Shown here: positions 7,421-32,078 of the stretch, piece by piece | How the letters are laid out: each line of letters begins with the position of its first letter | Position numbering within the stretch: the first letter of the stretch is position 1 | Assembly: GCA_019240115.1 (NCBI GenBank) | Contig: JAFAYV010000050.1 | Span: forward strand, 1 to 49,951 | Source of the DNA: Solirubrobacterales bacterium | Lineage (GTDB): Bacteria; Actinomycetota; Thermoleophilia; Solirubrobacterales; Solirubrobacteraceae | DNA: 49,951 nt | Direction: 5' to 3' | Made by a program: the position numbers and the translations under genes | The notes under the pieces: model-generated | Told to the model about the DNA's origin: nothing | Database searches by the model: none | The model's input: only the letters and a program-made list of their open reading frames with translations

Positions 7421-7445
7421 ATTCGAGCTCTATAGCGACGCTGCT

Positions 7446-7480: not shown

Positions 7481-7692
7481 ACGGGGCACGTCGGCGAACC
7501 CCGCCAGGGTCGTCCAGCGACGAACCGTGCACCGCGTCCGGGACGGGCGGAGCGGATGCTGCTGTTTCGCGCCGTCCTTGCCGGATCACCGGAGAAGCGG
7601 ACGCGAGGCACGGATCTCGTCACGGGAGGACCGCACCCCCACCCCGGGGATGGCAAACAGTGACGGTCGAGAGTCCGGTTTCGCGGTGACGC

Positions 7693-8865: not shown

Positions 8866-8874
8866 GCCGACGCC

Positions 8875-8880
8875 ACGCTA
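8875..8880 (-). promoter_or_regulatory. Probable -10 hexamer of the ExoA-like GT gene
   Basis: TAGCGT on the reverse strand ends nine bases before the ATG at 8865, with no Shine-Dalgarno between. It fits the leaderless pattern seen repeatedly here. Confidence 0.4.
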
Positions 8881-8919
8881 GCGATCGTCGCGGCCGCCTG
8901 CGCCGATCTCCAGCGCCCG

Positions 8920-8963
8920 CGTCCGCGGGTCCCGCGGCCTTCGAGCACTCCCCGGCGGTGCCG
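8920..8963. repeat. Dispersed repeat end, copy A
   Basis: CGTCCGCGGGTCCCGCGG followed by CCTTCGAGCACTCCCCGGCG matches, with a handful of substitutions over about 44 bases, the reverse complement of the right end of the element at 38826-39030. Only this end is shared; the rest of that element is absent here. It lies in the divergent promoter region of the GT2 gene and asnB. Confidence 0.65.
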
Positions 8964-8986
8964 GCACGACCTGCGGTCCGAGACAC

Positions 8987-8992
8987 TACGAT
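8987..8992 (+). promoter_or_regulatory. Probable -10 hexamer of asnB
   Basis: TACGAT stands seven bases before the ATG at 9000. No Shine-Dalgarno is present, so transcription would start at or next to the start codon. Confidence 0.45.
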
Positions 8993-8999
8993 CAGCCCC

Positions 9000-12752: not shown

Positions 12753-12881
12753 CGCGGCACACCCTCCTCAGCCCGCCCCCGGCCGCAGGCGGGGTGACGG
12801 CAAGCGGTCCCATATTCCTCCTGTGCGAGGAAAACACACGACGATGGCGCTGCGCAAGCGGCTACCGTCGCGGCGACGCGC

Positions 12882-14321: not shown

Positions 14322-15913
14322 TCAGTCGGGCTCGAGATCGGCCCCAGCCGCACGCCCGAGCGCTCGACCGGGTCTCCCACCGTCGACGGCGCCGCCTGGT
14401 AGTAGCCGGTGCCGGCGCGGGGGCTCTCGCCGATCAGCAGCACGCCGGCGACCGAGGCCGACTGCGTGCTCAGCAGCTCGCGCAGGTCGACCAGCCGCGC
14501 GAGGCGCGAGACGCCGAGCCGGGCGACGACGACGACCTCGTCGACGGCGTTGGCCAGCGGCAGCGCGTCGATCACCGCGGTCAGCGGCGGCGAGTCGATG
14601 ACCACGTAGTCCGCCGCCTCGCGGGCCTCGGTGACGAGAGAGCTGATGGTGTCGTAGGAGAGGCTGTCGGCGAGCTGGGCTCGGGGCGCCTGAACGGCCA
14701 GCGTGCGGAACTCGATCCCGCCGACGTTGACGTCGGTCAGCGCCTCCTCGAGCTCGTAGCGCCCCGCGATCACGTGCTCGGTTCCGCGCGCCACCTCGAG
14801 GTTGAGGGTGCGGGCGATCATCGGCCGGCGCAGGTCGAGCTCGATCAGGACGACCCGAGAGCCGCTCTGAGCGATCGAGGCGGCGAGGTTGATCGCCGAC
14901 GTCGTCTTGCCCTCCGAGGGCGCCGAGCCGGTGATCAGATACGAGCGGCCGGCGACGCGCGAGCCGCGGTCGAGCATCATCCGCAGCACGCGGTAGCCCT
15001 CGGCGGCGAGCAGCGAGAGCTCGCCGGGAAGCATCGGTCCGCGGTGGTCGCGCATCCGCAGAACCCCGACGCGCCGGACGGTCGGGACGCGGGCGAGTAC
15101 GCGCCAGCCGAGCAGCTCGCGCAGCTGGTCCTCGCGCCGGAGCTTGGGGTCCAGCGCGTCGACCGCGAACGCCGCGGCGATCCCGAGCACCAGGCCGGCG
15201 ATCAGGCCGGCGATCAGCGCCAGCTTCGTCCGGGGGGTGAAGGGCGCGGTCGGCAGCTGAGCGGGCGAGGAGACCACGAGCGTCGGGTCGCCGGAGGTCT
15301 GCAGCTGCTTGAGGTAGTTCAGCTCGGCGGTAGACGTCGTGTCGGCGGCCTTGACCGCGGGTGATTCGGCCTTCAGCTGGGCCTGGAGCCCCGGGATGAC
15401 GGTGCTGAGCGCCCGATGCAGCGCGGCCGTGCGCGTCTTGACCGTCTGACTGGCGAACGCGTTGGCGATGCGCTGCGCGTCGCCCGCCGAGCTCGCGGTC
15501 GCCTGCACGGCGACGAGATCGCTCTGACCGATTGGCGTGGCGTTGACGTCCCCGAGCAGTTGGGTCGGGGTGCGGTGCAGCCCGAGCTGCCGGATGACCG
15601 CCTGCGCGATCGCGGGCGTCGTGATGAGGCTCGCGCCGGTCAGGGTGTCGCGCGTCGGGTCCGTCGAGGAATGCAGCACCGGCAGGCCGACCGTGAACGT
15701 GTCCTGCGGCTGGATCGGCGAGACGATCATCTGCGCCGCGGACTCATATCTCCGGGTCGCGATCTGCGTGTAGGCGCCCGCCGCGAGCAGCGCCACGACG
15801 ACGCACGCGAGGACCAGCTTCCAGTGCTCCACGATCGTGCGTCCATACCGCCCGATGCCCAGCGACGCGCTTTCGGCGGCGCGCCGTCCCGCTCCCGAGT
15901 CATATGAGCTCAT
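14318..15913 (-). CDS. Chain-length determinant fused to BY-kinase (Wzz/Wzc-CpsD type)
   Basis: About 531 residues. Residues ~1-250 are a Wzz-like domain with two membrane helices (~33-52 and ~231-252) flanking an extracytoplasmic coil region. Residues ~320-500 are a CpsD/CapB-type tyrosine autokinase: Walker A GSAPSEGKTT at ~329-338, Walker A' VVLIELDLRRP (Glu in place of the first Asp of the usual DxD), Walker B YVVIDSPP. The C-terminus has only one GYYQ and no Tyr cluster, so autophosphorylation may be minor or differ. The family controls polymer length by working with Wzy. A CATAGT hexamer lies eight bases before the ATG, so this gene may have its own start site within the operon. Confidence 0.9.
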   Translation of the reverse strand: MSSYDSGAGRRAAESASLGIGRYGRTIVEHWKLVLACVVVALLAAGAYTQIATRRYESAAQMIVSPIQPQDTFTVGLPVLHSSTDPTRDTLTGASLITTPAIAQAVIRQLGLHRTPTQLLGDVNATPIGQSDLVAVQATASSAGDAQRIANAFASQTVKTRTAALHRALSTVIPGLQAQLKAESPAVKAADTTSTAELNYLKQLQTSGDPTLVVSSPAQLPTAPFTPRTKLALIAGLIAGLVLGIAAAFAVDALDPKLRREDQLRELLGWRVLARVPTVRRVGVLRMRDHRGPMLPGELSLLAAEGYRVLRMMLDRGSRVAGRSYLITGSAPSEGKTTSAINLAASIAQSGSRVVLIELDLRRPMIARTLNLEVARGTEHVIAGRYELEEALTDVNVGGIEFRTLAVQAPRAQLADSLSYDTISSLVTEAREAADYVVIDSPPLTAVIDALPLANAVDEVVVVARLGVSRLARLVDLRELLSTQSASVAGVLLIGESPRAGTGYYQAAPSTVGDPVERSGVRLGPISSPTE

Positions 15914-15921
15914 TGCGCGCC

Positions 15922-15927
15922 ACTATG
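15922..15927 (-). promoter_or_regulatory. Possible internal -10 hexamer before the Wzz/kinase gene
   Basis: CATAGT on the reverse strand ends eight bases before the ATG at 15913, in the 85-base gap after the epimerase gene. No Shine-Dalgarno is seen. Confidence 0.3.
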
Positions 15928-15998
15928 CCACGGGCCGGAGCGGCCTGCGGCACTTACATCCCAGATTTCTGCAGATCGCGAGATGATCGACTGCATGA

Positions 15999-16961
15999 TC
16001 ACGGACGAGACCACGGCGCCAACCTCCGAAGCATCGGATTGCGGGGGACGATCATCCGAAATGCCGCTTTGTAGGCGAACGCGGTGGCGCGCGAGTAGCG
16101 CGACGCCGAGTAGCCCGCCCAGCGGCGGCGGAAGACCTCGAGCTCGGGCCGGTCGGCGAACGCCTGCATCGCCTCGAGCTGGTTGACGTGCAGGTCGTGG
16201 TAGAAGGAGCTCGCCCGGTTGCAGATCGGGTGGGGGAACAGCGAGTACAGCGACCAGGTGCCGGTGTCGTAGCGCGGGAGGTTGGCCACGAGCGAGTCGA
16301 CGCCCCGCGCGAAGTGCTCGCCGGCCTGGGTCGACCCCAGTCCGACCGCGACGTCGCGCCAGCCCCAGAGCGCGAACATCGCGCCGTTGAGGACGTGCGA
16401 CGGCGGTCGCGTCGGGTACTCCTCCGGCCACGGACGGCCGCCGAGCTCGCCGAGCACGCCGCCATCCGCTTGCGGCCGGCTCATCGGCGACAACGCCGCA
16501 TGGGCGGCCTCGGCGAGCTCGACCTCGCCGGTCTGCAGATGCAGGCGGGTGAAGAGGCTTGCGGCCTGGCCCTGGGTGATCGCCGAGGCCCACGGCGGTG
16601 GCAGCGGAAACGTGTGGGGGAAGGGCTTGGCGTGGTACCAGGAGCCGTCGGGGTCCTGCACCGAGGCGAGGTGGCGCCCCGCATCCAGCGCCGCCTGCAG
16701 CCACTGCTCGCCCTCGCCGGCGATCCAGCGCTCGTGAGCGCCGAGCGCGTACTGGGTCATCGCGACGTGCAGCGCGCCCGGCACCAGCCACGCGGGGTCC
16801 GGCCCGGCGGCCGAGAACGCCTTGACGCGCATGTCGATCGGGTAGCCACGAACCCCGCCGGGGTCGATGTGGGAGCCGACCGGGAGGAAGAAGCTCTTGG
16901 CGCTCGACCAGAATCCGGCGTCCTGACGGCGCGATGTCTGCACCGCGCTCGCCGCGGTCAC
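15999..16961 (-). CDS. D-glucuronyl C5-epimerase-like protein
   Basis: About 320 residues. The frame is open to 17948, but the true gene starts at the GTG at 16961, overlapping the stop of the GT4 gene (GTGA). The C-terminal ~200 residues match the Glce_C pattern of heparosan/alginate-type C5-epimerases: GGVLGELGGRPWPEEYPT, HVLNGAMFALWGWRDVA, YDTGTWSLYSLFPHPICN, FYHDLHVNQLEAM. The Tyr/Trp/His-rich (alpha/alpha) barrel and the N-G-x-x-x-A/L-x-G-L/W motif are typical. The family inverts C5 of glucuronic acid in a polymer or oligomer to give iduronic acid. No signal peptide is seen. I am confident in the family and less so in the exact uronic acid substrate. Confidence 0.8.
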   Translation of the reverse strand: MTAASAVQTSRRQDAGFWSSAKSFFLPVGSHIDPGGVRGYPIDMRVKAFSAAGPDPAWLVPGALHVAMTQYALGAHERWIAGEGEQWLQAALDAGRHLASVQDPDGSWYHAKPFPHTFPLPPPWASAITQGQAASLFTRLHLQTGEVELAEAAHAALSPMSRPQADGGVLGELGGRPWPEEYPTRPPSHVLNGAMFALWGWRDVAVGLGSTQAGEHFARGVDSLVANLPRYDTGTWSLYSLFPHPICNRASSFYHDLHVNQLEAMQAFADRPELEVFRRRWAGYSASRYSRATAFAYKAAFRMIVPRNPMLRRLAPWSRP

Positions 16962-18076
16962 GCCGCCAGCCCCTCGTAGAGCGCGGCGAAGCGCTGCGCG
17001 GCGACGTCGATCGTGTAGCGCTGGAGTCGCTCGTGCGCGTCCCGGGCCATCCGTCGACGATAGGGGGCGTCGGTGAGCAGCCGGATCAGCGCGCGCGCGA
17101 GGGCGTCGGGGTCGCGCCGCGGCACGAGCAGGCCGGTGCGCTCGTTCTCGACGACGTCGGGGATCCCGCCGACGGCGGTGGCGACGAGCGCGGTCTCGTT
17201 GGCCATGCACTCGAACACGAACAGCGGCGAGCCCTCCCGATCGGAGCACATCGCGCCGATGTCCGCGCAGCGCAGGACGCCGTCGACGTCGGCGCGAGCG
17301 CCCAGGAAGTGCGTCGTCTCCCCGCATCCGAGCTCGACGGCGCGCCGCTGCAGCGCGGGTCGGCACTCGCCGTCGCCGGCGATCACGAGCTGGACGTCGG
17401 GGACCTGGGCCGACGCCTGCGCGTAGGCCTCGAGCAGCAGGTCCAGGCGCTTCTCGGGCCGCAGCACGGCCGCGATGGCGACGACCGGCGTGGAGGGGTG
17501 CAGCGCGAGCTCGGCGCGCAAATCGGTGTCGGAGTGGACCGGGCTCGGGACGTAGCCGTTGGGGATGATCGTGACCTTGCTCGGCCGGACGCCCTCGCGC
17601 GAGACCATCCGCGCGCCGTCGGCGCTCGAGACGGCGATGAAGCGGTCGGCGAGTCGTCCGATGACGTGCCCGTCGAGCCACGCGCGCGTCGGGTTGCCCT
17701 CGTAGGACCAGCTGTGCTCGTGGGCGACGATCGCCGGGACCTGGCAGGCCGACCCGATCAGCGACCCCCAGAGGTTTGAACCGAACTTGTGCGTGTGCAG
17801 GACGTCGATCCGCTCGCCGCGGACGATCCGCGCCACCTGGCCGAGCCGGTGGACGTCCCAGTGCGACCGGCGCCCGAGCACCACGTGGCGCACCCCGGCG
17901 TCGGCGAGCGCCCGGGAGGCGACGAGGTCCGAGCTCCGGGTGGCGCACATCCAGGTCTCGAACCGGTCGCGGGGCAGGTGCGTCGCCAGTCCGATCGCGA
18001 AGCGCTCGGCCCCGCCGGTCGAGGTGGCGAAGTCGATCAGGTACATCACCCGCAGGCGTGAGTTGGAGTTGCGCAT
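16958..18076 (-). CDS. Family 4 glycosyltransferase
   Basis: About 372 residues with a GT-B fold. N-terminal part: VMYLIDFATSTGGAERFAIG, with the GGAE motif of GT4 enzymes, and DVLHTHKFGSNLWG. C-terminal part: VVAIAAVLRPEKRLDLLLEA, VIAGDGECRPALQ, FLGARADVDGVLRCADIGAM, SDREGSPLFVFECMANETAL followed by VATAVGGIPDVV. The usual E-x7-E pattern is intact (E in DREGSP and FECMA). The frame is open to 18205, but residues before 18076 have no similarity and would overlap the upstream gene. I use the ATG at 18076, preceded by AAGG; a GTG at 18091 is possible. Confidence 0.87.
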   Translation of the reverse strand: MRNSNSRLRVMYLIDFATSTGGAERFAIGLATHLPRDRFETWMCATRSSDLVASRALADAGVRHVVLGRRSHWDVHRLGQVARIVRGERIDVLHTHKFGSNLWGSLIGSACQVPAIVAHEHSWSYEGNPTRAWLDGHVIGRLADRFIAVSSADGARMVSREGVRPSKVTIIPNGYVPSPVHSDTDLRAELALHPSTPVVAIAAVLRPEKRLDLLLEAYAQASAQVPDVQLVIAGDGECRPALQRRAVELGCGETTHFLGARADVDGVLRCADIGAMCSDREGSPLFVFECMANETALVATAVGGIPDVVENERTGLLVPRRDPDALARALIRLLTDAPYRRRMARDAHERLQRYTIDVAAQRFAALYEGLAA

Positions 18077-18134
18077 CGAGACCTTGGTCACGGCGCAGGC
18101 GCGGCCCCCACAGCCTCGCGTGCGCCCGGCGACC

Positions 18135-19682
18135 TCAGAGGTTACGCCGGTGGCGCGCGGTGTGCGGAAGCGTCGGATCGTCGGGCAGGCTCGTCCGGCT
18201 GTCACGAGACCGCAGGACCTCGGCGATCGTCAGCAGCGCAATCCGGACGTCGAGCCGCAGCGACCAGTTCTGGATGTAGTAGTTGTCCCATTCGACGCGG
18301 TCGGCGATCGAGGTCTGGCCGCGCAGGCCGTTGACCTGGGCCCAGCCGGTGATCCCCGAGCGGACGCGGTGGCGATCGTCGTAGCGGGCGACGTCGCGCG
18401 CGAAGCGGGCGACGTACTCCGGCCGCTCGGGCCGCGGCCCGACGAGGCTCATGTCGCCGCGGAGCACGTTGATCAGCTGCGGCAGCTCGTCGAGCGAGAG
18501 GTCGCGCAGCAGTCGCCCCACCCGGGTGCGCCGATCAGAGCCCTCGACGCCGCCCGGGGCCACGCCCTCGGGCAGGTTGAACGCCCGCACGTCGTCGTCG
18601 GGCATGCGCATCGTGCGGAACTTCAGCAGGTCGAACTCGCGCCCGTCGCGACCGACGCGACGCTGGCGGAAGAGGATCGGTCCCGACGACGAGACGCGGA
18701 CCGCGATCGCCACCGTGACCATGACCGGGGATGCGATCAGCAGCCCGATCAGCGCCACCGTGCGGTCGAGTGCGTGCTTGACCGCGAACTGCCAGCCCCG
18801 CGGGTCGGTGGCGTGCAGGGTCAGCAGCGGCAGGCCGCCGAGGTGGTCGAGCGTCGTGCGCTCGTTGATCGTCTCGTAGAGGCGGGGCACGAGCGAGACG
18901 CCGATGCCCGACCCCTCGAGCTGGCGCACGCGCTCGACGAGCACCTGGTCGCGCTCGCCGGAGAACGCGAGGATGACGTGACGAGCGCCGGTCCGCGCGA
19001 TCACGTCGAACAGGTCGTCGAGGCCGCCGAGGACGGGCAGGGAGTGGCGCGAGGAGACGGGCGCGGTCGGGAGCGGATCGTCGTCGACGAAGCCGACCGG
19101 TCGCAGGCCGTAGCCGGGCTCGCCCGCGAGTCGCTTGACGAGATGACCGCCGATGAGGCCGGCGCCGACGATCAGGGTGGGGGACCCGAACGCGCCAGTG
19201 GCGCGAGCCTGCTGGCGCGCCGAGACGAGCGCCACCCGTGCGGTTCCGAGATACACCACCGAGAACAGCCACAGCCGCGGAGCGAACGCGAGCGGATCGC
19301 TGCCGCCGAGGATCGAGTCGACCGAGACCGCGAGCATCGCGACGAGCGAGACGACCCCGAGCAGGTAGATGAAGGTGTCGAGCATCGAGACGTGCAGACG
19401 CTCGTCGGGGGACCGGCGCGCCCGCATCAGAGCGGTGACGGCGATCGGGAAGCTGATCGCGAGCCAGCGGTCCGAGGTGACGTCGCGCACGGTCGGGTCG
19501 GCGAACAGCGCCAGCGCGGCCGCGAGGTAGAGCACGAACGCGTCGAGCACCAGTCGGATCCGCGCCGCGGAATCGGCGTCCGCGAGATACCAGGCGAGGC
19601 GCGCGGTGAAGCGGCGGGGCCGCTCCGCCCTGCCGAGCAGGCCGGTCTGCGGGGCCGCCTGGGCTGCGGGGGGTGGGGTCAT
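18135..19682 (-). CDS. Polyprenyl-phosphate sugar-1-phosphate transferase (WbaP/WcaJ type)
   Basis: About 515 residues. Four to five N-terminal membrane segments (for example RLVLDAFVLYLAAALALFA), a central nucleotide-binding-like domain (TLIVGAGLIGGHLVKRL, VGFVDDDP), then the catalytic Bac_transf domain: GPILFRQRRVGRDGREFDLL, KFRTMR, LSLDELPQLINVLRGDMSLV, GPRPERPEYV, RSGITGWAQVNGLRG. These enzymes start repeat-unit synthesis by moving a sugar-phosphate (often galactose or glucose) to undecaprenyl phosphate. As the first gene of the leftward operon it fits the initiating role. The frame is open to 19979, but that stretch is less GC3-biased and lacks family features, so I start at the ATG at 19682. 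Confidence 0.9.
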   Translation of the reverse strand: MTPPPAAQAAPQTGLLGRAERPRRFTARLAWYLADADSAARIRLVLDAFVLYLAAALALFADPTVRDVTSDRWLAISFPIAVTALMRARRSPDERLHVSMLDTFIYLLGVVSLVAMLAVSVDSILGGSDPLAFAPRLWLFSVVYLGTARVALVSARQQARATGAFGSPTLIVGAGLIGGHLVKRLAGEPGYGLRPVGFVDDDPLPTAPVSSRHSLPVLGGLDDLFDVIARTGARHVILAFSGERDQVLVERVRQLEGSGIGVSLVPRLYETINERTTLDHLGGLPLLTLHATDPRGWQFAVKHALDRTVALIGLLIASPVMVTVAIAVRVSSSGPILFRQRRVGRDGREFDLLKFRTMRMPDDDVRAFNLPEGVAPGGVEGSDRRTRVGRLLRDLSLDELPQLINVLRGDMSLVGPRPERPEYVARFARDVARYDDRHRVRSGITGWAQVNGLRGQTSIADRVEWDNYYIQNWSLRLDVRIALLTIAEVLRSRDSRTSLPDDPTLPHTARHRRNL

Positions 19683-20234
19683 CCCGACCGGCTCGCCCGG
19701 CCTGGAATGCGACTGGTTCGTCTTGGGCGCAAGCCCGGCATGCCGGTCAGCCCCCTTCTTCCTGTCGACGACCGATGAGGACCATGAGGGCCACCCCGAG
19801 TCGTTGCCCTGCTCGGGGATCATAGCGCCGGGAGGGCCGAGATCGGCATTGGTGATCCGCCCATCCGGATGGTCTTGCACGCCGGATTCGCGATCCCTTC
19901 GCTCGGGCGTGATCGAGTGGATGATCCGGGCATGAGGCTCGGGGAGGGGGGAGGATTCGGGACCGGGTCTGGAGGTCATCGCAGGAGGTGCGCCGCTGGT
20001 TCATGAATCGTCCCCGCGCCGGGTCCGGACGTCGGTAATGACTACGGCTTGCCGGGCGGAAGGCTACGGGCCGTGGCGACGGAAAACGGCTGCATCCCGC
20101 ATTAATGCACTGGCTCCGGGGAGCGGCGGGCGCCGAGAACCTCATGTGCGCGATCGCCGGCGGGGGAGCCCGGGCCGGCAGCGGCCCCGACGGTCCCGGG
20201 GCCCAGGGTCGCGAGGCGCTAATCTTGTTGCACC
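19683..20234. other. 552-base divergent upstream region of the EPS operon
   Basis: It separates the leftward EPS operon from the rightward small membrane-protein genes. I see no convincing gene. It contains a 7-bp-stem inverted repeat (CCCCGAG 19794-19800 / CTCGGGG 19812-19818), the palindrome CATCCGGATG (19863-19872) and, in a locally AT-richer patch, GCATTAATGC (20099-20108) nested in TGCAT...ATGCA (20091-20109). The EPS promoter and perhaps a regulator site probably lie here. Confidence 0.5.
20220..20225 (+). promoter_or_regulatory. Probable -10 hexamer of the small membrane-protein pair
   Basis: TAATCT ends nine bases before the ATG at 20235 and no Shine-Dalgarno is present. Confidence 0.4.
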
Positions 20235-20438: not shown

Positions 20439-20735
20439 GTGCAGGGCCTGGGCCTGCTCGTGATCCTGCTGTGCTTCGGCGTGGCCGGAGGCGCGGTGGG
20501 CCGGATGAAGGGCAGCTCGTTCTTCATGTGGTTCCTCGTGTCGTTCTGCGTCCCGTTCATCGGCCTGCTGACCGCGGTCTGCTACCGCTGGGATGACCGC
20601 GAGCTGCGTCGCACCTGCCCGTCGTGCGGCGTGGTGCTCAAGCTCCACGACGCCGTGTGCGTCAACTGCGGCGAGGAGCTGGTCTTCCCGGACGTCGCGG
20701 TCGCCTCCGAGGCCGCGTCGCGAGCGCGCACCTAA
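20439..20735 (+). CDS. Small membrane protein with C-terminal zinc ribbon
   Basis: 98 residues. Two hydrophobic segments (~4-20 and ~28-48) come first, with a GRMKGSSFFMWFLVS turn between. Then CPSCG (~60-64) and CVNCG (~75-79) form a four-cysteine zinc ribbon placed after the membrane part, most likely in the cytoplasm. Similar small double-helix plus zinc-ribbon proteins are common and uncharacterised. GTG start. It follows the 63-residue membrane protein after 12 bases. Its stop codon overlaps that of the convergent hydrolase gene by three bases. Confidence 0.75.
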   Translation: MQGLGLLVILLCFGVAGGAVGRMKGSSFFMWFLVSFCVPFIGLLTAVCYRWDDRELRRTCPSCGVVLKLHDAVCVNCGEELVFPDVAVASEAASRART

Positions 20736-22543
20736 GCCGCGACCGCCGGCGCGGCCTCCAGCACGGGCACCAGGGCGCGTTCGAGCAGCTCGTGCGCCCA
20801 GCGCTGGCTGACCACCGGACGCAGCGTGTGGTCGCGGACGGGCAGGTGCTCGACCGTCGCCTGCGGCCACCGCGCGATGCGCTGCAGCCATCCGGACGCG
20901 ATCAGCTCCTCCTCGAGCGGCTCGTTGTCGGCGAACGCGAGCGCCCGGAGCTTGCCGGACTCCTCGAGCTCTGAGAGGAGCCGCTCGATGCGCGCCGGCA
21001 CCGCCGGCCCGGTGCCGGCGTGGCGCCGGGCGAGGCTCCGGCGCGGGGTCGCGGCCACCCATCGCGCCATCTCGGCCATCCGTTGGCGGCTCGCCGCCCG
21101 GCGCAGGCGGGCGACATCGAACGGATCGTCGAGCAGCCGGCGCAGGTCGCGGGCGGGGCCGAGCCCGGCGTCGTAGACGAGCGCGCGTGGGTTGACGAGC
21201 AGGGCGCCGACCACGCGCGGGTCGTCGAGCGCCACGTGCAGCGACCAGTAGGCGCCCGAGCACAGTCCGCAGAACACGGCCCGGTCGGCGATCCCGCGGC
21301 GCTGCAGCTCGTCGACCGCCGCGCGGACCTGATCGAGGAGGCGCGGCTCGTGCAGCGGGCCGTCGGTCCGGTAGGGCGCGACCGGCCCGCCGGCGTCGCC
21401 GATGCCCTCGATGTCCAGACGCAGCGACGCGACCCCGTGCCTCGCCGCCCAGCGCCGCGCCGCCTCGACCCACATCCGGTTGGGGCCCACCCGGCGCACC
21501 GACCCCGAGTGCAGGAAGACGGCGGCGACGGGATGGCGATGACCGGGTGCACGGGCGAGCACGCCCGCCAACCCCACGCCGTCGCACACGATCTCGACGG
21601 GGGTCTCGTGGACGGGGCCGTCGGGGGTCTGCATGCGCGCCTCGACGACCGGCGTCCCGGCGACCGCCGCCCCGCCGGCCGGCGTCCCGGCGACCGGCGT
21701 CCCGGCGACCGGCGCGGCCGCGCGCCCGTCGGCGATCCGCGAGCCGCCGTGCAGCCACCCCCGCAGCCGCTCGACGACCGCCTCGGGCACCTCGCTGCGC
21801 TGCGGATGGCCGATCAGCGCCTCATAGCCCTCGCCGGAGCCCTCGGTCACCGCGATCCCCTGTCCGCGCAGCGCGTCGGCGAGCCGGCCGTCGCCCGCGA
21901 TCCCGTCGCGGTCGAGCAGCAGCGCGCCGCGCGACAGCCCGGCGGGGATCGGCAGCGCGGCGAGGTCGAGCGCTCGCAGGTCGGCGACGGTCTCGGCGCT
22001 CAGCACGAAGCCCCCGGCCTCGAGCTCGCCCTCCGGAGGCGGCGGGGGCGCGGGCCGGTCCTGGAAGAAGAGCGGCCGCTCGAGCCGCGCGAACGCGCGC
22101 AGCGCGCGGAGGAGGTCCTTGCCCGCGGCCGGGGTCGCCCACAGCGCGAGCCCGTCGAGCGGGGCACCCGTCGCCGCCGCGCGGTGGGCGACGAGCCCGC
22201 CGAGGCCGAGGCCGAACGCGACCACCGCGGTGGCTCCGGTGAGCTCGCGCATCGCGCGCGCCGCCGCGGCCACCGCCGCGGTCCAGGTCTCGAGCCGATG
22301 GGGATCGCGCGGCGAGCCGCCGCTGTCCCCGCAGCTCGGCAGGGTCAGGCGCAGCGTCGGATACCCCGCCTCGGCAAGGCGGGCGGCGACTTCGCGCAAG
22401 GAGCGATACGCGCTGATCTCCTCGAAGCCGAACGGAGGGCAGATGACGACCGCCGTGTCGCGGGCGGCGGCGGCGGCGTGCAGGACCGCGAACGCCGGCT
22501 CGGAGGCGACGTCGAGATACAGGCTCTGCGTGGTGGAGGTCAT
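20732..22543 (-). CDS. Two-domain alpha/beta-hydrolase fusion
   Basis: About 603 residues. The frame is open to 24418, but everything before the ATG at 22543 is antisense to ilvB. Domain 1 (~1-265): VVICPPFGFEEISAYRSLRE, LPSCGDSGG, and FGLGLGGL at the nucleophile elbow, where Gly113 stands in place of Ser. A VAGTP-repeat linker (~278-300) leads to domain 2 (~310-600): VFLHSGSVRRVGPNRMWVE, LDIEGIGDAGG, and FCGLCSGAYWSL, where Cys428 takes the nucleophile position, then a late Asp/His region (VRDHTLRP). Both domains resemble the hydrolases found beside exosortase/EPS loci. Substrate unknown; an acyl or thioester bond is plausible. Domain 1 may be non-catalytic. Confidence 0.78.
   Translation of the reverse strand: MTSTTQSLYLDVASEPAFAVLHAAAAARDTAVVICPPFGFEEISAYRSLREVAARLAEAGYPTLRLTLPSCGDSGGSPRDPHRLETWTAAVAAAARAMRELTGATAVVAFGLGLGGLVAHRAAATGAPLDGLALWATPAAGKDLLRALRAFARLERPLFFQDRPAPPPPPEGELEAGGFVLSAETVADLRALDLAALPIPAGLSRGALLLDRDGIAGDGRLADALRGQGIAVTEGSGEGYEALIGHPQRSEVPEAVVERLRGWLHGGSRIADGRAAAPVAGTPVAGTPAGGAAVAGTPVVEARMQTPDGPVHETPVEIVCDGVGLAGVLARAPGHRHPVAAVFLHSGSVRRVGPNRMWVEAARRWAARHGVASLRLDIEGIGDAGGPVAPYRTDGPLHEPRLLDQVRAAVDELQRRGIADRAVFCGLCSGAYWSLHVALDDPRVVGALLVNPRALVYDAGLGPARDLRRLLDDPFDVARLRRAASRQRMAEMARWVAATPRRSLARRHAGTGPAVPARIERLLSELEESGKLRALAFADNEPLEEELIASGWLQRIARWPQATVEHLPVRDHTLRPVVSQRWAHELLERALVPVLEAAPAVAA
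21649..21708. repeat. 15-base repeat encoding a VAGTP linker
   Basis: CCGGCGTCCCGGCGA occurs at 21649, 21679 and 21694, with a diverged unit between. It encodes the Ala/Gly/Thr/Pro linker joining the two hydrolase domains. Confidence 0.75.
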
Positions 22544-22566
22544 ATCGTGCCCGTCACTGGGTGGGG

Positions 22567-25038: not shown

Positions 25039-25320
25039 ATGCACACGACCGAATCCGCCAGCCCGGTGAGCCTGCAGTCCGAGATCCGCGAGGTGCTGCG
25101 CGCCCACGCGCGGCTGCCCGTCGACGTCGACACGCTGCCCGACGATGCCGACCTGTTCCGGGCCGGGATGAGCTCGCACGCCTCGGTCAACGTCATGCTC
25201 GCGCTCGAGGACGCCTTCGACGTCGAGTTCCCCGACGAGATGCTGACCCGTGGCGCGTTCGAGAGCGTCGAGGCCATCGCCGCCGCGATCGGCGAGCTCG
25301 TCGAGTCGCCGGCGGCCTGA
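25039..25320 (+). CDS. Acyl/aminoacyl carrier protein
   Basis: 93 residues with the helical carrier-protein pattern: DDADLFRAGMSSHASVNVML, then ALEDAFDVEFPDEML and FESVEAIAAAI. The phosphopantetheine site is normally DSL; here it reads M-S-S-H-A, with the second Ser (~45) in the modified position. This is a departure from fatty-acid ACP, and I recall a similar pattern for carrier proteins served by amino acid:[carrier protein] ligases. It is the first gene of a seven-gene group that includes an AcpS and such a ligase. ATG preceded by GGGAGAAG. A TAGGGC hexamer in the 78-base gap may be part of the promoter. It is predicted to hold an amino acid as a thioester. Confidence 0.88.
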   Translation: MHTTESASPVSLQSEIREVLRAHARLPVDVDTLPDDADLFRAGMSSHASVNVMLALEDAFDVEFPDEMLTRGAFESVEAIAAAIGELVESPAA

Positions 25321-25382
25321 CCGCGGGCCGTCGGCCGGGCACGGGCTCAAAGTCTCGGTGCAGCTGCCGAGAACGTCGCACA

Positions 25383-25742
25383 ATGGCTCAGCATGTCGGC
25401 ATCGACCTGGCTGACGTCGAGGAGGTGCGCGCGTCGGTCGTCGCTCAGGGGGAGCGGTACCTGGCGCGCGTGTTCACCGATTCCGAGCGCCGCCACAGTG
25501 ACGGGCGCATCGAGCGACTGGCGGCGCAATTCGCCGCCAAGGAGGCGACAATGAAGGCTCTGCGCTGCGAGGACAGACTGCCCTGGAGATCGATCGAGGT
25601 GGCGACGGACGCGACCGGCACGGCGTCGCTCGCGCTGCACGGGCCGGCGGCCCGAGTGGCCCGCGAGCGCGGGGTCGGCGAGCTCGTGCTCAGCCTCACG
25701 CGAACGTCGTGGCACGCGGCGGCGGTGGTGGTCGCGCGATGA
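25383..25742 (+). CDS. acpS: Holo-ACP synthase-type phosphopantetheinyl transferase
   Basis: 119 residues. AcpS motifs are present: GIDLADVEEV at ~6-15 (Asp8 binds Mg), VFTDSE, and LAAQFAAKEATMKAL, with the KEA Glu (~54). It transfers phosphopantetheine from CoA to a carrier-protein serine. Its position between the carrier protein and the dehydrogenase suggests it is dedicated to this pathway; whether a second AcpS serves fatty-acid synthesis elsewhere in the genome is unknown. ATG at 25383, stop overlapping the next ATG (ATGA), so translation is probably coupled. Confidence 0.9.
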   Translation: MAQHVGIDLADVEEVRASVVAQGERYLARVFTDSERRHSDGRIERLAAQFAAKEATMKALRCEDRLPWRSIEVATDATGTASLALHGPAARVARERGVGELVLSLTRTSWHAAAVVVAR

Positions 25743-26914
25743 GCATCGCCGTCGACCGTGACCAGGAGCTGATCGGGCGGGTCATCGCGATCGCCGACGA
25801 GGTGGCCGCCGTCCACGCCGACGAGGTCGATCGCGAGGCGCGCTTCCCCGCCGAGACGGTGGCGGCGCTGCGCGAGGCGGGGGCGCTGTCGGCGCTCGTC
25901 CCCGAGACGCTCGGCGGGGTCGGCGCCTCGTTGCGCGCGGTCGCCGCCGCCTGCTTCGAGCTCGGCCGGCGCTGCTCCTCGAGCGCGATGGTGTTCGCGA
26001 TGCACCAGATCCAGGTGGCCACGATGGTCCGTCACCTCGACGACGCGCCGTGGTTTCAGGAGTACCTCGGCGAGCTGTGCGCCCAGCAGCGGCTGATCGC
26101 CTCGGTCACCTCGGAGATCGGCACCGGGGGCGACATGGGCCGGTCGATCGCCCCGCTCAGCGAGGCGGCCGGCGGCCGCCTGCACTTCACCAAGCTCGCG
26201 CCGACGGTCAGCTACGGCGCCCACGCCGACGACCTGCTGACGACCGTGCGCCGCTGCGAGATGGCCGAGCAGTCAGACCAGGTGCTCGTGCTGAGCCGGC
26301 GCGAGCAGACCGAGCTCGAGCAGACCGGGACCTGGGACACGATCGGGATGCGCGGCACCTGCTCGCCGGGCTTCACCGTCCGCGCGGAGATCGACAGCGG
26401 CCAGGTCCTGCCCGCGCCCTTCTCCGATGTCATGAACCAGACCCACGTGCCGATCTCGCACATCCTGTGGTCGCACGTGTGGCTGGGGATCGCCACCGAG
26501 GCGTTCGAGCGCGGGCGCGCGTTCGTTCGCGGTCAGGCCAAGCGGGCCCCCGGCCAGCCCGTCCCGGCGGCCGCCGGGCTGTCGCGGGTCATGAACCAGC
26601 TCTCGATGCTGCGCGCCGAGGTGCGCTCAGCGCTTGACGAGTTCGAACGCGCCTCCGAGGAGCCGGGCCGGGGCCGGCTCGGGACGATGGCGACGATCCT
26701 GCGGTTCAACAACCTGAAGCTCGCCGCCTCCGAGCAGGCGCCGCTCATCTGCTCGGCGGTGCTCGAGCTCGTGGGGATCGTCGGGTTCAAGAACGACTCG
26801 CCGTTCGCGGTCGGCCGGCTGCTGCGCGACTCGCTGTCGGCGCGCCTCATGGTCGCCAACGCCCGCATCCACGACGTCGACGCGGGCCTCCTGCTCATCG
26901 CCAAGGATGTGTGA
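25739..26914 (+). CDS. Acyl-CoA dehydrogenase-like flavoprotein
   Basis: About 391 residues. N-terminal helical domain with FPAETVAALREAGALSALVP; middle domain with ASVTSEIGTGGDMGRSI and a THVPISHILWSHVWLGIATE region; C-terminal helical domain with AAGLSRVMNQLSMLRAEVRS and GRLLRDSLSARLMVANARIH. The last is the FAD-binding RD motif region of the family. A normal catalytic Glu was not located with confidence. Standard members oxidise acyl-CoA at the alpha-beta bond. Relatives such as PltE/RedW act on an aminoacyl chain bound to a carrier protein, and the setting here favours that: oxidation of the aminoacyl-S-carrier product. Starts in a four-base overlap with acpS. Confidence 0.88.
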   Translation: MSIAVDRDQELIGRVIAIADEVAAVHADEVDREARFPAETVAALREAGALSALVPETLGGVGASLRAVAAACFELGRRCSSSAMVFAMHQIQVATMVRHLDDAPWFQEYLGELCAQQRLIASVTSEIGTGGDMGRSIAPLSEAAGGRLHFTKLAPTVSYGAHADDLLTTVRRCEMAEQSDQVLVLSRREQTELEQTGTWDTIGMRGTCSPGFTVRAEIDSGQVLPAPFSDVMNQTHVPISHILWSHVWLGIATEAFERGRAFVRGQAKRAPGQPVPAAAGLSRVMNQLSMLRAEVRSALDEFERASEEPGRGRLGTMATILRFNNLKLAASEQAPLICSAVLELVGIVGFKNDSPFAVGRLLRDSLSARLMVANARIHDVDAGLLLIAKDV

Positions 26915-26917
26915 GCG

Positions 26918-27862
26918 ATGTCCGTGACCGTGCGTGAGGCCTCCGCCGACCAGGCCGAGTTCCTCGCCGACCTGATCGCCCGGGGCCTGCTGATCGAGAC
27001 CGGCGTGCCCGGCGTCTACGGGCACAACGCCGCGTTCGAGGACGTCCGCGAGGCGCTCGCCGCCCGCCTGACCGCCGAGGCGGGTCTGCGGGGGGCGCAG
27101 CGGCTGCGCTTCCCGCCGCTGCTGCCCCGCCGGCAGCTCGAGTCCAGCGGCTACCTGTCGTCGTTCCCGCATCTGGCGGGCACGGTGTACGCGTTCGACG
27201 GCGACGAGCGCCAGGCGCGCGAGCAGGCCGAGTGCGCCGCCGCTCACGGCGATTGGTCCGAGCACCAGGAGATGACCGCGCTCGCGCTGATGCCGGCGGC
27301 GTGCTACCCGGTGTACCCGGCGATCGCCGCGCAGGGGCCGCTCCCCGAGGGCGGGACCTTCGTCGACGCCGGCGGCGCCTGGGTGTTCCGCCACGAGCCG
27401 TCCCACGACCCCGCGCGACGTCAGATCTTCCATCAGCACGAGCTCGTGCGCATCGGCGAGCCCGAGGGGGTGCTCGAGTGGCGCGACGAGTGGGCCCAGC
27501 GCGGGCTGGACGTGCTCCGCGCGCTCGGTCTCGACGCCGAGCTCGACGTCGCCAACGACCCGTTCTTCGGCCGCCGGGGCCGGATGCTGCAGGCCAACCA
27601 GCGTTCCGAGCGCCTCAAGCTCGAGTTGCTCGTCCAGATCGCGGGTCCCGAGCCGACCGCCTGCGCATCCTTCAATCACCATCGCGAGCACTTCGGCGGG
27701 ACCTACGGCATCGAGCTCGCCGACGGCGGCGTCGCGCACACCGCGTGCCTCGGGTTCGGCCACGAGCGGATCGTGCTCGCGCTGCTGCACACCCACGGGC
27801 TCGACCCCGACCGCTGGCCCGACGCGGTGCACGCCGAGCTGGGCGCCGATGCGGCTCGCTGA
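26918..27862 (+). CDS. Amino acid:[carrier protein] ligase (aaRS-like, class II)
   Basis: 314 residues, with no tRNA-binding domain. It has the class II aminoacyl-tRNA-synthetase catalytic core: motif 2 VFRHEPSHDPARRQIFHQHE and motif 3 CLGFGHERIVLALL. Known relatives (atypical seryl-tRNA-synthetase-like enzymes described in Bradyrhizobium) bind zinc through Cys, Glu and Cys and load glycine or alanine onto a carrier protein. Here Cys129 (AACYP), Glu175 (HQHE) and Cys277 (TACLG) fall at matching places. Predicted reaction: amino acid + ATP to aminoacyl-AMP, then transfer to the phosphopantetheine thiol of the carrier protein at 25039. Three bases after the dehydrogenase. Family call is strong; amino acid identity is unknown. 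Confidence 0.9.
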   Translation: MSVTVREASADQAEFLADLIARGLLIETGVPGVYGHNAAFEDVREALAARLTAEAGLRGAQRLRFPPLLPRRQLESSGYLSSFPHLAGTVYAFDGDERQAREQAECAAAHGDWSEHQEMTALALMPAACYPVYPAIAAQGPLPEGGTFVDAGGAWVFRHEPSHDPARRQIFHQHELVRIGEPEGVLEWRDEWAQRGLDVLRALGLDAELDVANDPFFGRRGRMLQANQRSERLKLELLVQIAGPEPTACASFNHHREHFGGTYGIELADGGVAHTACLGFGHERIVLALLHTHGLDPDRWPDAVHAELGADAAR

Positions 27863-28823
27863 ACGGCCGGCGCTGCGCTCCCTGACGGGATCCGATCCCG
27901 CCACCTACGCGCAGCACCCACTGCACGCCGCCGCTCCGGCCTATCCGGAGACCAACTGCTACACCGACATCATCATCGAGCTGCTGCACGCCGCCGGCCA
28001 CGAGCCGCTGGCGATGCTCGGTCACCTCGTGCGGATGGACTTCGAGGGCGACCAGTGGACGTTCTTCAAGCCGCCGCCCGAGGATCTCGAGCGGCTGTTC
28101 GCGGTCGACATCCACGAGATGCAGCCCTATCGGCCGCTGCCCGCGATGATCGCCGAGCAGCTCGAAGTCGGGCGGACGATCATCGTCGAGCTCGACAGCT
28201 TCCACCTCCCCGACACCGCGTCGACGAGCTATCGCACCGAGCACGTCAAGTCCTCGGTCGCCGCCGACGCGATCGACCACGACGGCGAGCGGCTCTGGTA
28301 CTTCCACAACGCCGGCTTGTTCGAGCTCTCCGGCGAGGACTACCGGCGCGCACTGCGGCTCGAGCCGCTGCACCCCGACGTCCTGCCGCCCTACACCGAG
28401 CTCGTGCGCCTCGACGCGGGCGAGGCGCTGCGCGGCGAGACCCTGCGCGCCGCGGCGCGCGAGACGCTCGCCCGGCATCTCCTCCGCCGTCCCGCCGCCA
28501 ACCCGTTCGCGCGGTTCGGCGCCCAGCTCGAGCGCGAGCTCCCCGCGCTGCTCGAGGGCGGCCTCGAGGACTTCCACGCCTACGCGTTTGCGACCGTGCG
28601 GATGGCGGGCGCCGCGTTCCAGCTCGCCGCCGCCCACGCGCGGTGGCTGCTCGACGCCGAGGGGGAGCCGGCGGCCGCGGCGATGGACGAGCTCGTCGCC
28701 GGCTGCAAGGCGATGTCGTTCCGCCTCGCGCGCCGAGCGCCGTTCGCGACCGCGCCCCGCATCGAGAAGCTGGCCACTGCCTGGGACCGCGCCATGGCCG
28801 AGCTCGCCGACCATGTCATATGA
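27849..28823 (+). CDS. DUF1839 family protein
   Basis: 324 residues. Characteristic segments: PETNCYTDIIIELLHAAGHE, DFEGDQWTFFKPPPEDLERL, VDIHEMQPYRP, VELDSFHLPDTASTSYRTEH followed by VKSS. These match DUF1839 as I know it. The Cys in NCYTD and the His in the YRTEHVK segment recall a papain-like or transglutaminase-like fold and could be catalytic, which would suit transfer or release of a thioester-bound aminoacyl group, but this is inference. The ATG at 27849 overlaps the ligase gene by 14 bases, so the two are tightly linked. DUF1839 genes are, to my knowledge, typical companions of this ligase family. Confidence 0.85.
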   Translation: MRLAERPALRSLTGSDPATYAQHPLHAAAPAYPETNCYTDIIIELLHAAGHEPLAMLGHLVRMDFEGDQWTFFKPPPEDLERLFAVDIHEMQPYRPLPAMIAEQLEVGRTIIVELDSFHLPDTASTSYRTEHVKSSVAADAIDHDGERLWYFHNAGLFELSGEDYRRALRLEPLHPDVLPPYTELVRLDAGEALRGETLRAAARETLARHLLRRPAANPFARFGAQLERELPALLEGGLEDFHAYAFATVRMAGAAFQLAAAHARWLLDAEGEPAAAAMDELVAGCKAMSFRLARRAPFATAPRIEKLATAWDRAMAELADHVI

Positions 28824-29658
28824 CTCGCGCCCGCCGACGGCAGGGATCGCCGACGACATCCAGGTCCGCGTCAACGCCGAGGTCTGGCGCGACGGTGAGT
28901 TCGCGTCCTTCTACGACCACGTCTCGCTCCTGCCCGCCGAGGCGCTCATCCTCGCGCGGTACTGCGGACGGCTGACCGGCCGGGTCCTCGACGTCGGGTG
29001 CGGCGCCGGCCGGATCCTGAACTACCTCGTCCGGCTCGGCGCCGAGGCGCACGGGATCGACATCTCCGAGCACATGGTGCAGTTCAGCCGGCGCAGCGTG
29101 CCCGCCGCCGACGTCCGGTGCGTCGATCTGGCCGACATCCGCGGGGCGGTGCACGGCCGCTTCGACGCGATCCTCATGACCGACAACGTCCTCGACGTGT
29201 TCGACGATGCCCACCGCCGCGCCGTGCTCAGCGACCTGCGCGAGCTGCTGACCGCCGACGGTCTGCTCATCTTCTCCTCGCACAACCTCGCCGCGTGGGA
29301 GCAGCCTCCGTCCGGCGACGAGAAGCTCGGGACGCGGGTCGCCGAGATCGGACAGCGGGTCGCCCAGCGTCCGCTCGGCGACATCATCCGCGCCACGCGA
29401 CGCCTCCCGCGCCGGGTCGCCAACCACCGCCGGCTGGCGCCGCTGCAGTACCGGGCGGTCAACCATGCGGTCGTCAACGACTCGGGCCAGGACTACGCGC
29501 TGCTGCACTACTACATCACCCGGGCCGACCAGGAACGGCAGCTGACCGAGCTCGGCTACGCGCTGCTCGAGGCGCTCGAGCTCTCGGGCGCGCCGGTGCC
29601 CACCGGACAGGAGGGCGCGACCTCGTCGCTGTACTACGTGGCGGCCCTCGCGGCGTGA
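28813..29658 (+). CDS. Class I SAM-dependent methyltransferase
   Basis: 281 residues. The SAM-binding motif I is VLDVGCGAGRILNYL, followed by GIDISEHMVQFSRR (motif post-I acidic end), CVDLADI, FDAILMTDNVLDVFDDAHRR and LLTADGLLIFSSHNLAA. The C-terminal part (LPRRVANHRR, LLHYYITRADQERQL) probably selects the acceptor. The likely role is methylation of the carrier-bound or released product of this operon. It overlaps the DUF1839 gene by 11 bases and the GH2 gene by four (GTGA). The frame is open upstream to 28588, but that part is antisense-free shadow without family features. Confidence 0.87.
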   Translation: MSYDSRPPTAGIADDIQVRVNAEVWRDGEFASFYDHVSLLPAEALILARYCGRLTGRVLDVGCGAGRILNYLVRLGAEAHGIDISEHMVQFSRRSVPAADVRCVDLADIRGAVHGRFDAILMTDNVLDVFDDAHRRAVLSDLRELLTADGLLIFSSHNLAAWEQPPSGDEKLGTRVAEIGQRVAQRPLGDIIRATRRLPRRVANHRRLAPLQYRAVNHAVVNDSGQDYALLHYYITRADQERQLTELGYALLEALELSGAPVPTGQEGATSSLYYVAALAA

Positions 29659-32078
29659 GCCCCGTCGTCCGGCGGGACCTGACCGACGGCTGGATGGTCG
29701 CCGGGTCCGATCCCGGCGCCTGCGCGGGACCCGGCGAGCTCGATCGGCTGCACTTCATCCCGGCGGTCGTGCCCGGAACCGCCGCGGCCGCCGTCGGCGA
29801 TGACGCGCTGGACTACGACGCGCGCGACTGGTGGTTCACGACCCGGTTTCATGCCGAGCCGGCCGCCGCGGGGGAGACCGTCGCGCTCGGGCTCGAGGGG
29901 CTGGCGACCGTCGCCGAGGTCTATCTCAACGGTGAGCTCGTGCTGAGCGGCGAGTCGATGTTCGCCGGCCACGAGCTCGACGTCGGCGCCCGGCTGCGCG
30001 GCGACAACGAGCTCGTCATCGGCTGCCGGGCGCTGCACCCGCTGCTCGCCGCGCGACGCCGGCCGCGCGCTCGCTGGCGGACCCGGCTCGTCACCTCGGG
30101 CAACCTGCGCTTCTACCGGACGATGCTGTTGGGACGGGCGCCCGGCTTCGCGCCGGGTCCGGCGGTCGTCGGGCCGTGGCGGCCGGTGTGGCTGCAGCGG
30201 TGCTCGGGCCGCCGGCTCGAGGCGGTCGCGCTGCGCGCGCGGGTGCGCGACGACGTCGGGGTGGTGTCGGTAGCCGCCACCCTGCGCGGGGCCCGCGAGG
30301 CGCTGGCGCTGGACGTCGGCGAGCATCGCGTCGCGCTGAGCGTCGACGCGGTGGGACGGGTGAGCGGCGAGCTGCGGATCCCCGACTGCCGGCGCTGGTG
30401 GCCCCATACGCACGGGGAGCCGGCGCTGCACGACGTCGCGATCGCCGGCGACGAGGGCGTCCTGCACCGCGGGCGCGTCGGCTTTCGGACGCTCGAGGCG
30501 CCGGACGACCTGGCGACCGACGGGCCGGCGCTGACGATCAACGGCGTCGACGTGTTCTGCCGGGGGGCGGTGTGGACGCCGCCGTCGCTGCGCAAGCCGT
30601 CCGGTGATCGGGCGCACTACGAGCCGGTGCTCCGCCGTCTGACCGCCGGGGGGCTGAACATGCTCCGCGTCCCCGGGACCGCGGCGTACGAGTCAGACGC
30701 CTTCTACGACCTCTGCGACGAGCTGGGGATCCTCGTCTGGCAGGACTTCATGTTCGCCAACCTCGACTACCCCGAGTCAGAGCCCGAGTTCCTGGACGGG
30801 GTGGCGCGCGAGGCGCGCGAGCAGCTGTCGCGGATCGCGGGGCGCCCGAGCCTGGCGGTGCTCTGCGGCGGCAGCGAGGTCGCCCAGCAGGTGGCGATGC
30901 TCGGCCTCGATCCGGCGCTCGCGCACGGTCCGCTGTTCGGCGAGGTCCTCCCGGCGGCGGTGGCCGACGCGGACGTGGACGCGCCGTACGTCCCCTCGGC
31001 GCCGTGGGGCGGCGAGCTGCCGTTTCGCACCGACCGCGGCGTCGCGCACTACTTCGGGGTTGGCGCCTACCGGCGCCCGCTCGCCGACGCCCGGCTCGCC
31101 GAGGTGCGCTTCGCCGCCGAGTCGCTCGCCTTCGCCAACCTGTCCGACGAGCCCGAACCGGATCTCGGGGTGCCGCGCGACGCGGGCGCCGACTGGGACT
31201 TCGCCGACGTCCGCGACCACTATCTGCGCGAGCTCTTCGGGCTCGATCCGGCCCACCTGCGCACGACGGATCCCGCGCGCTACCGCGCGCTCTCGCGGGT
31301 GGTCAGCGGCGAGGTCATGGCCGAGACGTTCGGCGAGTGGCGCCGCGCGGCGTCGCCGTGCCGCGGCGCCCTCGTGTTGTGGAGCAAGGACCTTGAGCCC
31401 GGCGCCGGCTGGGGCCTGCTCGATCACCGCGGCGAGCCCAAGGTCGCCTTCCGTCACGTCGCCCGCGCCCTGGCGCCGGTGGCGACGTGGACGACCGACG
31501 AGGGGCTCGGCGGCATCGACGTCCACGTCGCCAACGATCGTGGGCTGCCGCTGCGGGCCCACCTGCGGGTGGCGCTGTACCGCGACTTCGCGCTCCGCGT
31601 GGAGGAGTCGGTGACCGAGCTCGAGCTCGCCGCCCGCGGGTGGGCGCGGTTCGGCGTCGAGGCGCTGCTCGGGCGGTTCGTCGACGTCTCCTGGGCCTAC
31701 CGCTTCGGTGCGCCGGCGCAGGACCTCGTCGCGGTGTCGCTGCTCGACGCGGACGGCGAGCTGCTCTCGCAGGCGTTCCGCTTCCCCGTCGGCCGCCCGC
31801 TCGCGCTCGGCGACGTGGGGCTGCGCGGGCGCCTGCAGGGCACCCGCCTCGTCGTGGCCGCCGATCGCTTCGCCTACGGCGTGCGCGTCCACGCCGCGGG
31901 CTTCGATCCCTCCGACGACGCGTTCGGGGTTGAGCCCGGGGGCGAGCGGACGATCGAGCTGCGCGGGGGCGCGGGGCCACGCGGTCCGGCGGCGGTCACG
32001 CTGACCGCGCTCAACGCCCCCGCGGTCGAGGTCAGGGCCCACGGCTCTCCGGTCGCTCCGGCGAACTCGCGCCGCTGA
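29655..32078 (+). CDS. Glycoside hydrolase family 2 protein (beta-mannosidase-like)
   Basis: About 807 residues. N-terminal sugar-binding domain: DYDARDWWFTTRF and VAEVYLNGELVLSGESMFAG. Middle domain, then a TIM barrel with INGVDVFCRGAVWTPPS, GGLNMLRVPGTAAYESDAFY, DELGILVWQDFMFANLDYP, LCGGSE (Glu408, in the place of the CGNNE acid/base), and RFAAESLAFAN (Glu489, in the place of the SEFGxQ nucleophile). Both catalytic Glu appear present, though the flanking residues are unusual (GGSE rather than GNNE). No signal peptide, so it is probably cytoplasmic. GTG start within the MT stop. It suggests the pathway product, or a precursor, carries a sugar. Confidence 0.83.
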   Translation: MSPVVRRDLTDGWMVAGSDPGACAGPGELDRLHFIPAVVPGTAAAAVGDDALDYDARDWWFTTRFHAEPAAAGETVALGLEGLATVAEVYLNGELVLSGESMFAGHELDVGARLRGDNELVIGCRALHPLLAARRRPRARWRTRLVTSGNLRFYRTMLLGRAPGFAPGPAVVGPWRPVWLQRCSGRRLEAVALRARVRDDVGVVSVAATLRGAREALALDVGEHRVALSVDAVGRVSGELRIPDCRRWWPHTHGEPALHDVAIAGDEGVLHRGRVGFRTLEAPDDLATDGPALTINGVDVFCRGAVWTPPSLRKPSGDRAHYEPVLRRLTAGGLNMLRVPGTAAYESDAFYDLCDELGILVWQDFMFANLDYPESEPEFLDGVAREAREQLSRIAGRPSLAVLCGGSEVAQQVAMLGLDPALAHGPLFGEVLPAAVADADVDAPYVPSAPWGGELPFRTDRGVAHYFGVGAYRRPLADARLAEVRFAAESLAFANLSDEPEPDLGVPRDAGADWDFADVRDHYLRELFGLDPAHLRTTDPARYRALSRVVSGEVMAETFGEWRRAASPCRGALVLWSKDLEPGAGWGLLDHRGEPKVAFRHVARALAPVATWTTDEGLGGIDVHVANDRGLPLRAHLRVALYRDFALRVEESVTELELAARGWARFGVEALLGRFVDVSWAYRFGAPAQDLVAVSLLDADGELLSQAFRFPVGRPLALGDVGLRGRLQGTRLVVAADRFAYGVRVHAAGFDPSDDAFGVEPGGERTIELRGGAGPRGPAAVTLTALNAPAVEVRAHGSPVAPANSRR

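Follow-up and report, generated by a model that had tools for sequence, protein, structure and literature searches.

The window analyzed here, a whole contig of 49,951 nucleotides (nt) from a Solirubrobacterales bacterium (Actinomycetota; assembly GCA_019240115.1, 99 contigs and 4.03 Mb; contig JAFAYV010000050.1), carries an operon centered on an amino acid:[carrier protein] ligase related to seryl-tRNA synthetase (SerRS). Seven open reading frames (ORFs) were confirmed at positions 25039-32078, all on the plus strand, with overlaps of 4, 14, 11 and 4 nt and gaps of 62 and 3 nt at the remaining junctions. They encode an acyl carrier protein (ACP), an AcpS-type 4'-phosphopantetheinyl transferase, a flavoprotein resembling acyl-CoA dehydrogenases (ACAD), the ligase, a DUF1839 protein, a class I S-adenosylmethionine (SAM) methyltransferase and a GH2 glycosidase (Table 1). 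The layout and the seven family assignments agree with a first-pass annotation of this DNA, which had taken the seven genes for one conserved pathway. The true conserved unit is five genes, not seven: ACP, flavoprotein, ligase, DUF1839 and GH2 form a set that is kept in distant bacteria and is apparently undescribed as a pathway.

Conservation was assessed in the 80 nearest ligase loci found in species genomes, which are mostly from Rhizobiales and mutually related. The whole core, in the order seen in the window, is present in 76 of the 80; three of the incomplete loci (L007, L032 and L037) end at contig edges, and L008 is without the downstream DUF1839 and GH2. Of 199 genomes sampled evenly across the Rhizobium order, 26 contain DUF1839 and 36 a ligase above the family cut-off, and DUF1839 directly adjoins a ligase in all 26 genomes that encode it. 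Because 76 of 80 loci keep the whole core and all 26 DUF1839 genes have an adjacent ligase, the linkage exceeds chance by far. The gene order is common to Rhizobiales, Azospirillum, Burkholderiales and Actinomycetota, and the core also resides on plasmids of Rhizobium, Azospirillum and Mycetohabitans. All five genes occur in two Actinomycetota genomes of other families, G139 and G278, arranged in the latter as two facing groups. Among 346 Actinomycetota genomes, DUF1839 was detected in 3 and a ligase match in 8; the gene set is rare outside the Rhizobium order, and most copies found belong to alphaproteobacteria, so that it is no actinobacterial peculiarity.

The two remaining genes are of a different kind. 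AcpS was found elsewhere only in the near relative L006 and at a second ligase/ACP pair of G139, and is thus an accessory. The methyltransferase matched nothing in the other loci examined, L006 included, and was rejected as a conserved pathway member. The first-pass annotation had singled out the GH2 and the methyltransferase as companions to be sought beside the ligase elsewhere; this held for the GH2, which is among the ligase's most conserved companions, and failed for the methyltransferase.

The window ligase scores 393.6 bits against the NF005479 equivalog ('amino acid--[acyl-carrier-protein] ligase'), whose cut-off is 357, and is homologous to the structurally solved Bradyrhizobium enzyme Bll0957 (PDB 3mey, E 7e-79; 4h2w, E 6e-81). 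Its 314 residues align with the catalytic part of SerRS proteins of 518-527 residues, the tRNA-binding domain having been lost. The zinc ligands C129, E175 and C277, recognized earlier as intact, are identical in 88 of 88 aligned relatives, and the attachment residue of the ACP, Ser46, is kept in 84 of 84. The adjacent ACP is suggestive of a ligase that charges a carrier protein and not tRNA. A Bradyrhizobium member of the family reportedly has amino acid:[carrier protein] ligase activity, and the family's substrate is glycine or alanine. Membership in NF005479 and homology to Bll0957 thus lend support, at the level of sequence, to the proposed combination of carrier protein, phosphopantetheinyl transferase and loading by an aminoacyl-tRNA synthetase (aaRS) relative.

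Bll0957 resembles the window ligase in its family, zinc site and adjacent flavoprotein, but its loci differ. In the Rhizobium-order sample, ten ligases above the cut-off are without DUF1839; in each case a flavoprotein adjoins the ligase, while DUF1839, GH2 and the hydrolase described below are absent. These ten form one separate clade in the ligase tree. Locus L140, which has close relatives in L144 and L145, is of this type and encodes a near copy of Bll0957; the ligase studied by biochemistry is therefore one of the DUF1839-free type. The window ligase clusters with those of L006 and G292, the latter from the same class. The G292 locus (L102:8451-12555) comprises a flavoprotein, a ligase and, directly behind the ligase, a double hydrolase; DUF1839 and GH2 are absent, and no replacement for DUF1839 was found.

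A 2023 survey described DUF1839 as a papain-like family having a C-(T/S)-H triad, and conjectured a glycan-related role at the cell wall (PMC10318531). No relative of solved structure was found by sequence search; the match came from a fold search alone. An AlphaFold (AF2) model built from 33 sequences (predicted local distance difference test score, pLDDT, 91) aligned with CcbD over 286 residues (Z 19.8, 3.4 A) and, over nearly the whole chain, with AziU3 (Z 18.9) and CtaG (Z 18.1), the next unrelated fold scoring Z 8.0. The model contains both the papain-like fold and the long C-terminal helical part of CcbD-like enzymes. Cys37, His132, His153 and Asp164 are invariant in 87 aligned sequences, and the spacing of cysteine and histidine, counted along the sequence, is 116 residues in DUF1839 (C37-H153), 112 in CcbD (C19-H131) and 117 in CtaG (C11-H128). 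CcbD is a carrier protein-dependent, ping-pong amide synthetase (Cys-His-Glu) that transfers an amino acid from a peptidyl carrier protein to its own cysteine and from there to the amino group of an amino sugar (PMC12945683). DUF1839 is accordingly predicted, from the modeled fold, to be a CcbD-like amide synthetase, and the fold match to CcbD and CtaG favors the earlier suggestion that it is a likely transferase.

Two DUF1839 copies occur in Cupriavidus agavae (L081:10919-11905 and 15722-16888), with a homologue in L088. The operon copy in Cupriavidus is without Cys37, Thr123 and Lys134, while the second, nearby copy has all three; the duplicates are likely a pseudo-enzyme/enzyme pair, and joint loss is as expected if the three residues share one active site.

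The AF2 model of the flavoprotein (pLDDT 91) matches KijD3, DnmZ, TdsC and ACADs. By sequence identity its closest structures are KijD3 and DnmZ (22-24%), N-oxygenases that act on amino sugars, yet overall fold scores fail to tell such oxygenases from dehydrogenases. The position of the catalytic glutamate (E376 of medium-chain acyl-CoA dehydrogenase) is occupied by valine or isoleucine in 87 of 87 sequences (Val372 in the window, isoleucine in most relatives), and a search of residues 235-260 for the alternative base, at the position of E254 in isovaleryl-CoA dehydrogenase, revealed no conserved glutamate. Since the catalytic glutamate is gone, the protein probably acts as an N-oxygenase or a non-classical dehydrogenase. 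Assignment as a classical ACAD is unsupported, the glutamate being missing at both known positions, and oxidation by an ordinary dehydrogenase, as initially proposed, is doubtful.

The GH2 protein matches beta-mannosidase 2vqu (E 4e-46). Its acid/base Glu408 lies within a family-specific C-G-G-S-E motif that is kept in 81 of 85 sequences, and its nucleophile Glu489 is kept in 83 of 85; no signal peptide was found in the copies inspected, suggesting a cytosolic enzyme. In two Rhizobium genomes the GH2, broken or shifted in frame, is apparently split over 2-3 reading frames, with the other four core genes whole-looking (L044:11900 onward; L074:12139 onward), and in Oryzibacter a fumarase-type lyase gene sits between DUF1839 and GH2 (L054:12722-14110). 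A sixth, frequent partner, overlooked in the first-pass annotation, is a double alpha/beta hydrolase, roughly 600 residues long; 50 of 87 loci encode a relative, frequently placed directly 3' of GH2. The window copy lies 2.5 kb upstream of the operon and shares 37% identity with the hydrolase that follows GH2 in Azospirillum. In Rhizobium leguminosarum a Wzx-type flippase and a double alpha/beta hydrolase are fused in one ORF of 1103 residues (L068:15813-19124).

Table 1. Operon genes, hydrolase partner and exopolysaccharide genes of the window
Feature	Position	Strand	Profile match
Carrier protein (ACP), core gene 1	25039-25320	+	PF00550 (PP-binding) E 1e-7; NF005480 E 6.5e-32
AcpS-type 4'-phosphopantetheinyl transferase, accessory, non-core	25383-25742	+	PF01648 E 3e-14
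ACAD-like flavoprotein, core gene 2	25739-26914	+	PF02771 (Acyl-CoA_dh_N)
SerRS-like amino acid:[carrier protein] ligase, core gene 3	26918-27862	+	NF005479 E 5e-118
DUF1839, predicted papain-like carrier protein-dependent amide synthetase, core gene 4	27849-28823	+	PF08893 E 1e-95, 320.8 bits
Class I SAM methyltransferase (Methyltransf_25), insertion	28813-29658	+	PF13649 E 3e-15; PF05401 NodS E 1e-6
GH2 glycosidase, core gene 5	29655-32078	+	PF22666 (GH2 N-terminal domain)
Double alpha/beta hydrolase, exosortase-A-system hydrolase 2 + 1 type	20732-22555	-	TIGR03101/TIGR03100
Wzx	2592-4145	-	Pfam/NCBIfam
GT2	7693-8865	-	Pfam/NCBIfam
GT4	10829-11992	-	Pfam/NCBIfam
Deacetylase	11985-12752	-	Pfam/NCBIfam
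Wzy-like	12882-14321	-	Pfam/NCBIfam
Wzz/Wzc-like	14318-15913	-	Pfam/NCBIfam
GT4	16958-18205	-	Pfam/NCBIfam
Undecaprenyl phosphate (Und-P) sugar transferase	18135-19979	-	Pfam/NCBIfam

The opposite strand of the window carries a Wzx/Wzy-type exopolysaccharide cluster (2592-19979), which had also been passed over, and exopolysaccharide genes adjoin the operon in the distant genome G278. A homologue of Wzx, Wzz, a priming transferase or a glycosyltransferase lies within 10 kb in 37 of the 80 loci, as compared with 1 of 28 control regions of 20 kb from six genomes (Fisher p 2e-5, ignoring relatedness). This context supports surface modification, one of the options first put forward for the operon. 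Among the neighboring genes, ilvBN, close upstream, and menF, on the downstream side, appear to be housekeeping ones.

From the conserved module, its residues, its folds and its setting we infer both an enzymology and an amine acceptor. Our judgment inclines, modestly, toward a carrier-protein route in which an amino acid is activated, modified by oxidation and attached to an amine, most likely that of an amino sugar in a surface polysaccharide precursor. AcpS, whose motif is present, would convert the carrier protein to holo-ACP; the SerRS-like ligase would adenylate glycine or alanine and load it onto the ACP thiol; and the ACAD-fold flavoprotein would oxidize either the amino acid while it is bound to ACP or else the acceptor. 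Cys37 of DUF1839, to judge from its fold and residues, would then accept the aminoacyl group and hand it on to the amine. The cytosolic GH2 and the double hydrolase might trim or proof-read a glycan or ester, and gene context points to the Wzx/Wzy-type machinery as the exporter of the product. In the window alone, the methyltransferase might conceivably N-methylate, by analogy with CcbJ, which adds the N-methyl group in lincosamides. A fuller version of this scheme is possible but doubtful: an undescribed, phylum-crossing pathway that decorates the amino sugars of exopolysaccharide with N-oxidized aminoacyl groups in the cytoplasm before export, through an aaRS-derived ligase, an N-oxidizing ACAD-fold enzyme and a CcbD-like amide synthetase, with editing by GH2 and the double hydrolase.

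Several considerations weigh against the polysaccharide route. The 80 loci, being mostly from Rhizobiales, are non-independent, and the controls were drawn from six genomes only. Nor does the exopolysaccharide link hold everywhere: the vicinity of the G139 operon offers only a UDP-glucose dehydrogenase, and loci of the Rhizobium tropici type adjoin sugar ABC transporters. Of all the parts, GH2 and the double hydrolase are the hardest to fit into the scheme.

The absence of polysaccharide genes near some operon copies is compatible with a small diffusible natural product, such as a lincosamide-like aminoacyl amino sugar or a dipeptide, which GH2 and the hydrolase would release or activate. CcbD, AziU3 and CtaG all serve in the making of natural products, and the combination of carrier protein, ligase, amide synthetase and methyltransferase parallels lincosamide synthetase (PMC12945683). 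The conserved core, however, is devoid of dedicated genes for transport, regulation or resistance, and strong cross-phylum conservation together with enrichment of Wzx, Wzz and glycosyltransferase genes would be unusual for a specialized metabolite; we regard such a product as rather unlikely. Thioester dehydrogenation, in which the flavoprotein would be a true acyl-ACP dehydrogenase yielding a dehydroamino acid and DUF1839 a releasing hydrolase, draws on the ACAD fold (Z about 40), the retained FAD-binding motifs and ColB1 (7xp7), which by its entry title dehydrogenates cysteine tethered to an assembly line. It is quite improbable given the valine or isoleucine at the catalytic position throughout, the lack of a conserved glutamate in the alternative helix and the resemblance of DUF1839 to amide-forming enzymes and not to thioesterases. 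That seven unrelated genes of a compact genome cluster by chance, or for purely operonic reasons, is hardly credible: the methyltransferase and AcpS are indeed lineage-specific, but for the core the idea is refuted by five genes kept in one order across four bacterial groups.

In the polysaccharide route favored here, the operon would work much as lincosamide synthetase does (carrier CcbZ/LmbN, condensing enzyme CcbD/LmbD), where a papain-like, carrier protein-dependent enzyme with the DUF1839 fold couples a carrier-bound amino acid to an amino sugar. The window operon differs in activating the amino acid by an aaRS-like ligase and in adding a flavoprotein and GH2, and its acceptor is a putative one. 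CtaG of Ruminiclostridium and AziU3 of the azinomycin producer share the fold class with the DUF1839 model (Z 18-19) but belong to other clusters with other substrates, and identity is only about 13-15%. The nitrososynthases KijD3, DnmZ and ORF36 share the ACAD fold of the flavoprotein and act on amino-sugar nitrogen, whereas the substrate of the window flavoprotein is a presumed one. The Dlt system (DltA/DltC/DltB/DltD) likewise uses a carrier-bound amino acid to modify a surface polymer, and the window ACP weakly matches DltC. The operon nevertheless has an aaRS-like ligase in place of the DltA adenylation domain and a putative cytosolic DUF1839 transferase; it falls outside the Dlt system, because Dlt requires the membrane-bound O-acyltransferase (MBOAT) DltB and the operon encodes none.

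Literature searches that paired amino acid:[carrier protein] ligases with exopolysaccharide, or ACP with aminoacylated O-antigen, returned nothing useful. If correct, the proposed route would supply the missing physiological role of these ligases, a known family so far without one; it would also bring a descendant of the aaRSs into polysaccharide chemistry and assign a function to PF08893, a family that only one paper in the literature searched mentions by name. In its fuller version the route would amount to a cytosolic equivalent of alanylation by Dlt. With a candidate acceptor-side enzyme, a flavoprotein and a likely cellular destination named, the role of the ligase becomes testable in easily handled rhizobia.

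A divergent ligase branch (G631 and G696) adjoins an MBOAT O-acyltransferase in a DltB-type arrangement (L150:5692-7203 and 7101-8432 in G696; L149 has a comparable pair), which may represent a Dlt-like system built around a ligase of the aaRS type. Given this pairing, the aminoacylation of surface polymers may extend more widely through the ligase family. In G139, a second cluster of ligase, ACP and AcpS lies on the opposite strand about 8 kb from the operon (L105:9144-10865 and 17857 onward), by the UDP-glucose dehydrogenase gene. About 45 loci (e.g., L068:5479-8307) have genes for EF-P, a class II LysRS-like protein (EpmA-type) and a radical SAM protein immediately upstream of the operon, which probably reflects mere synteny.

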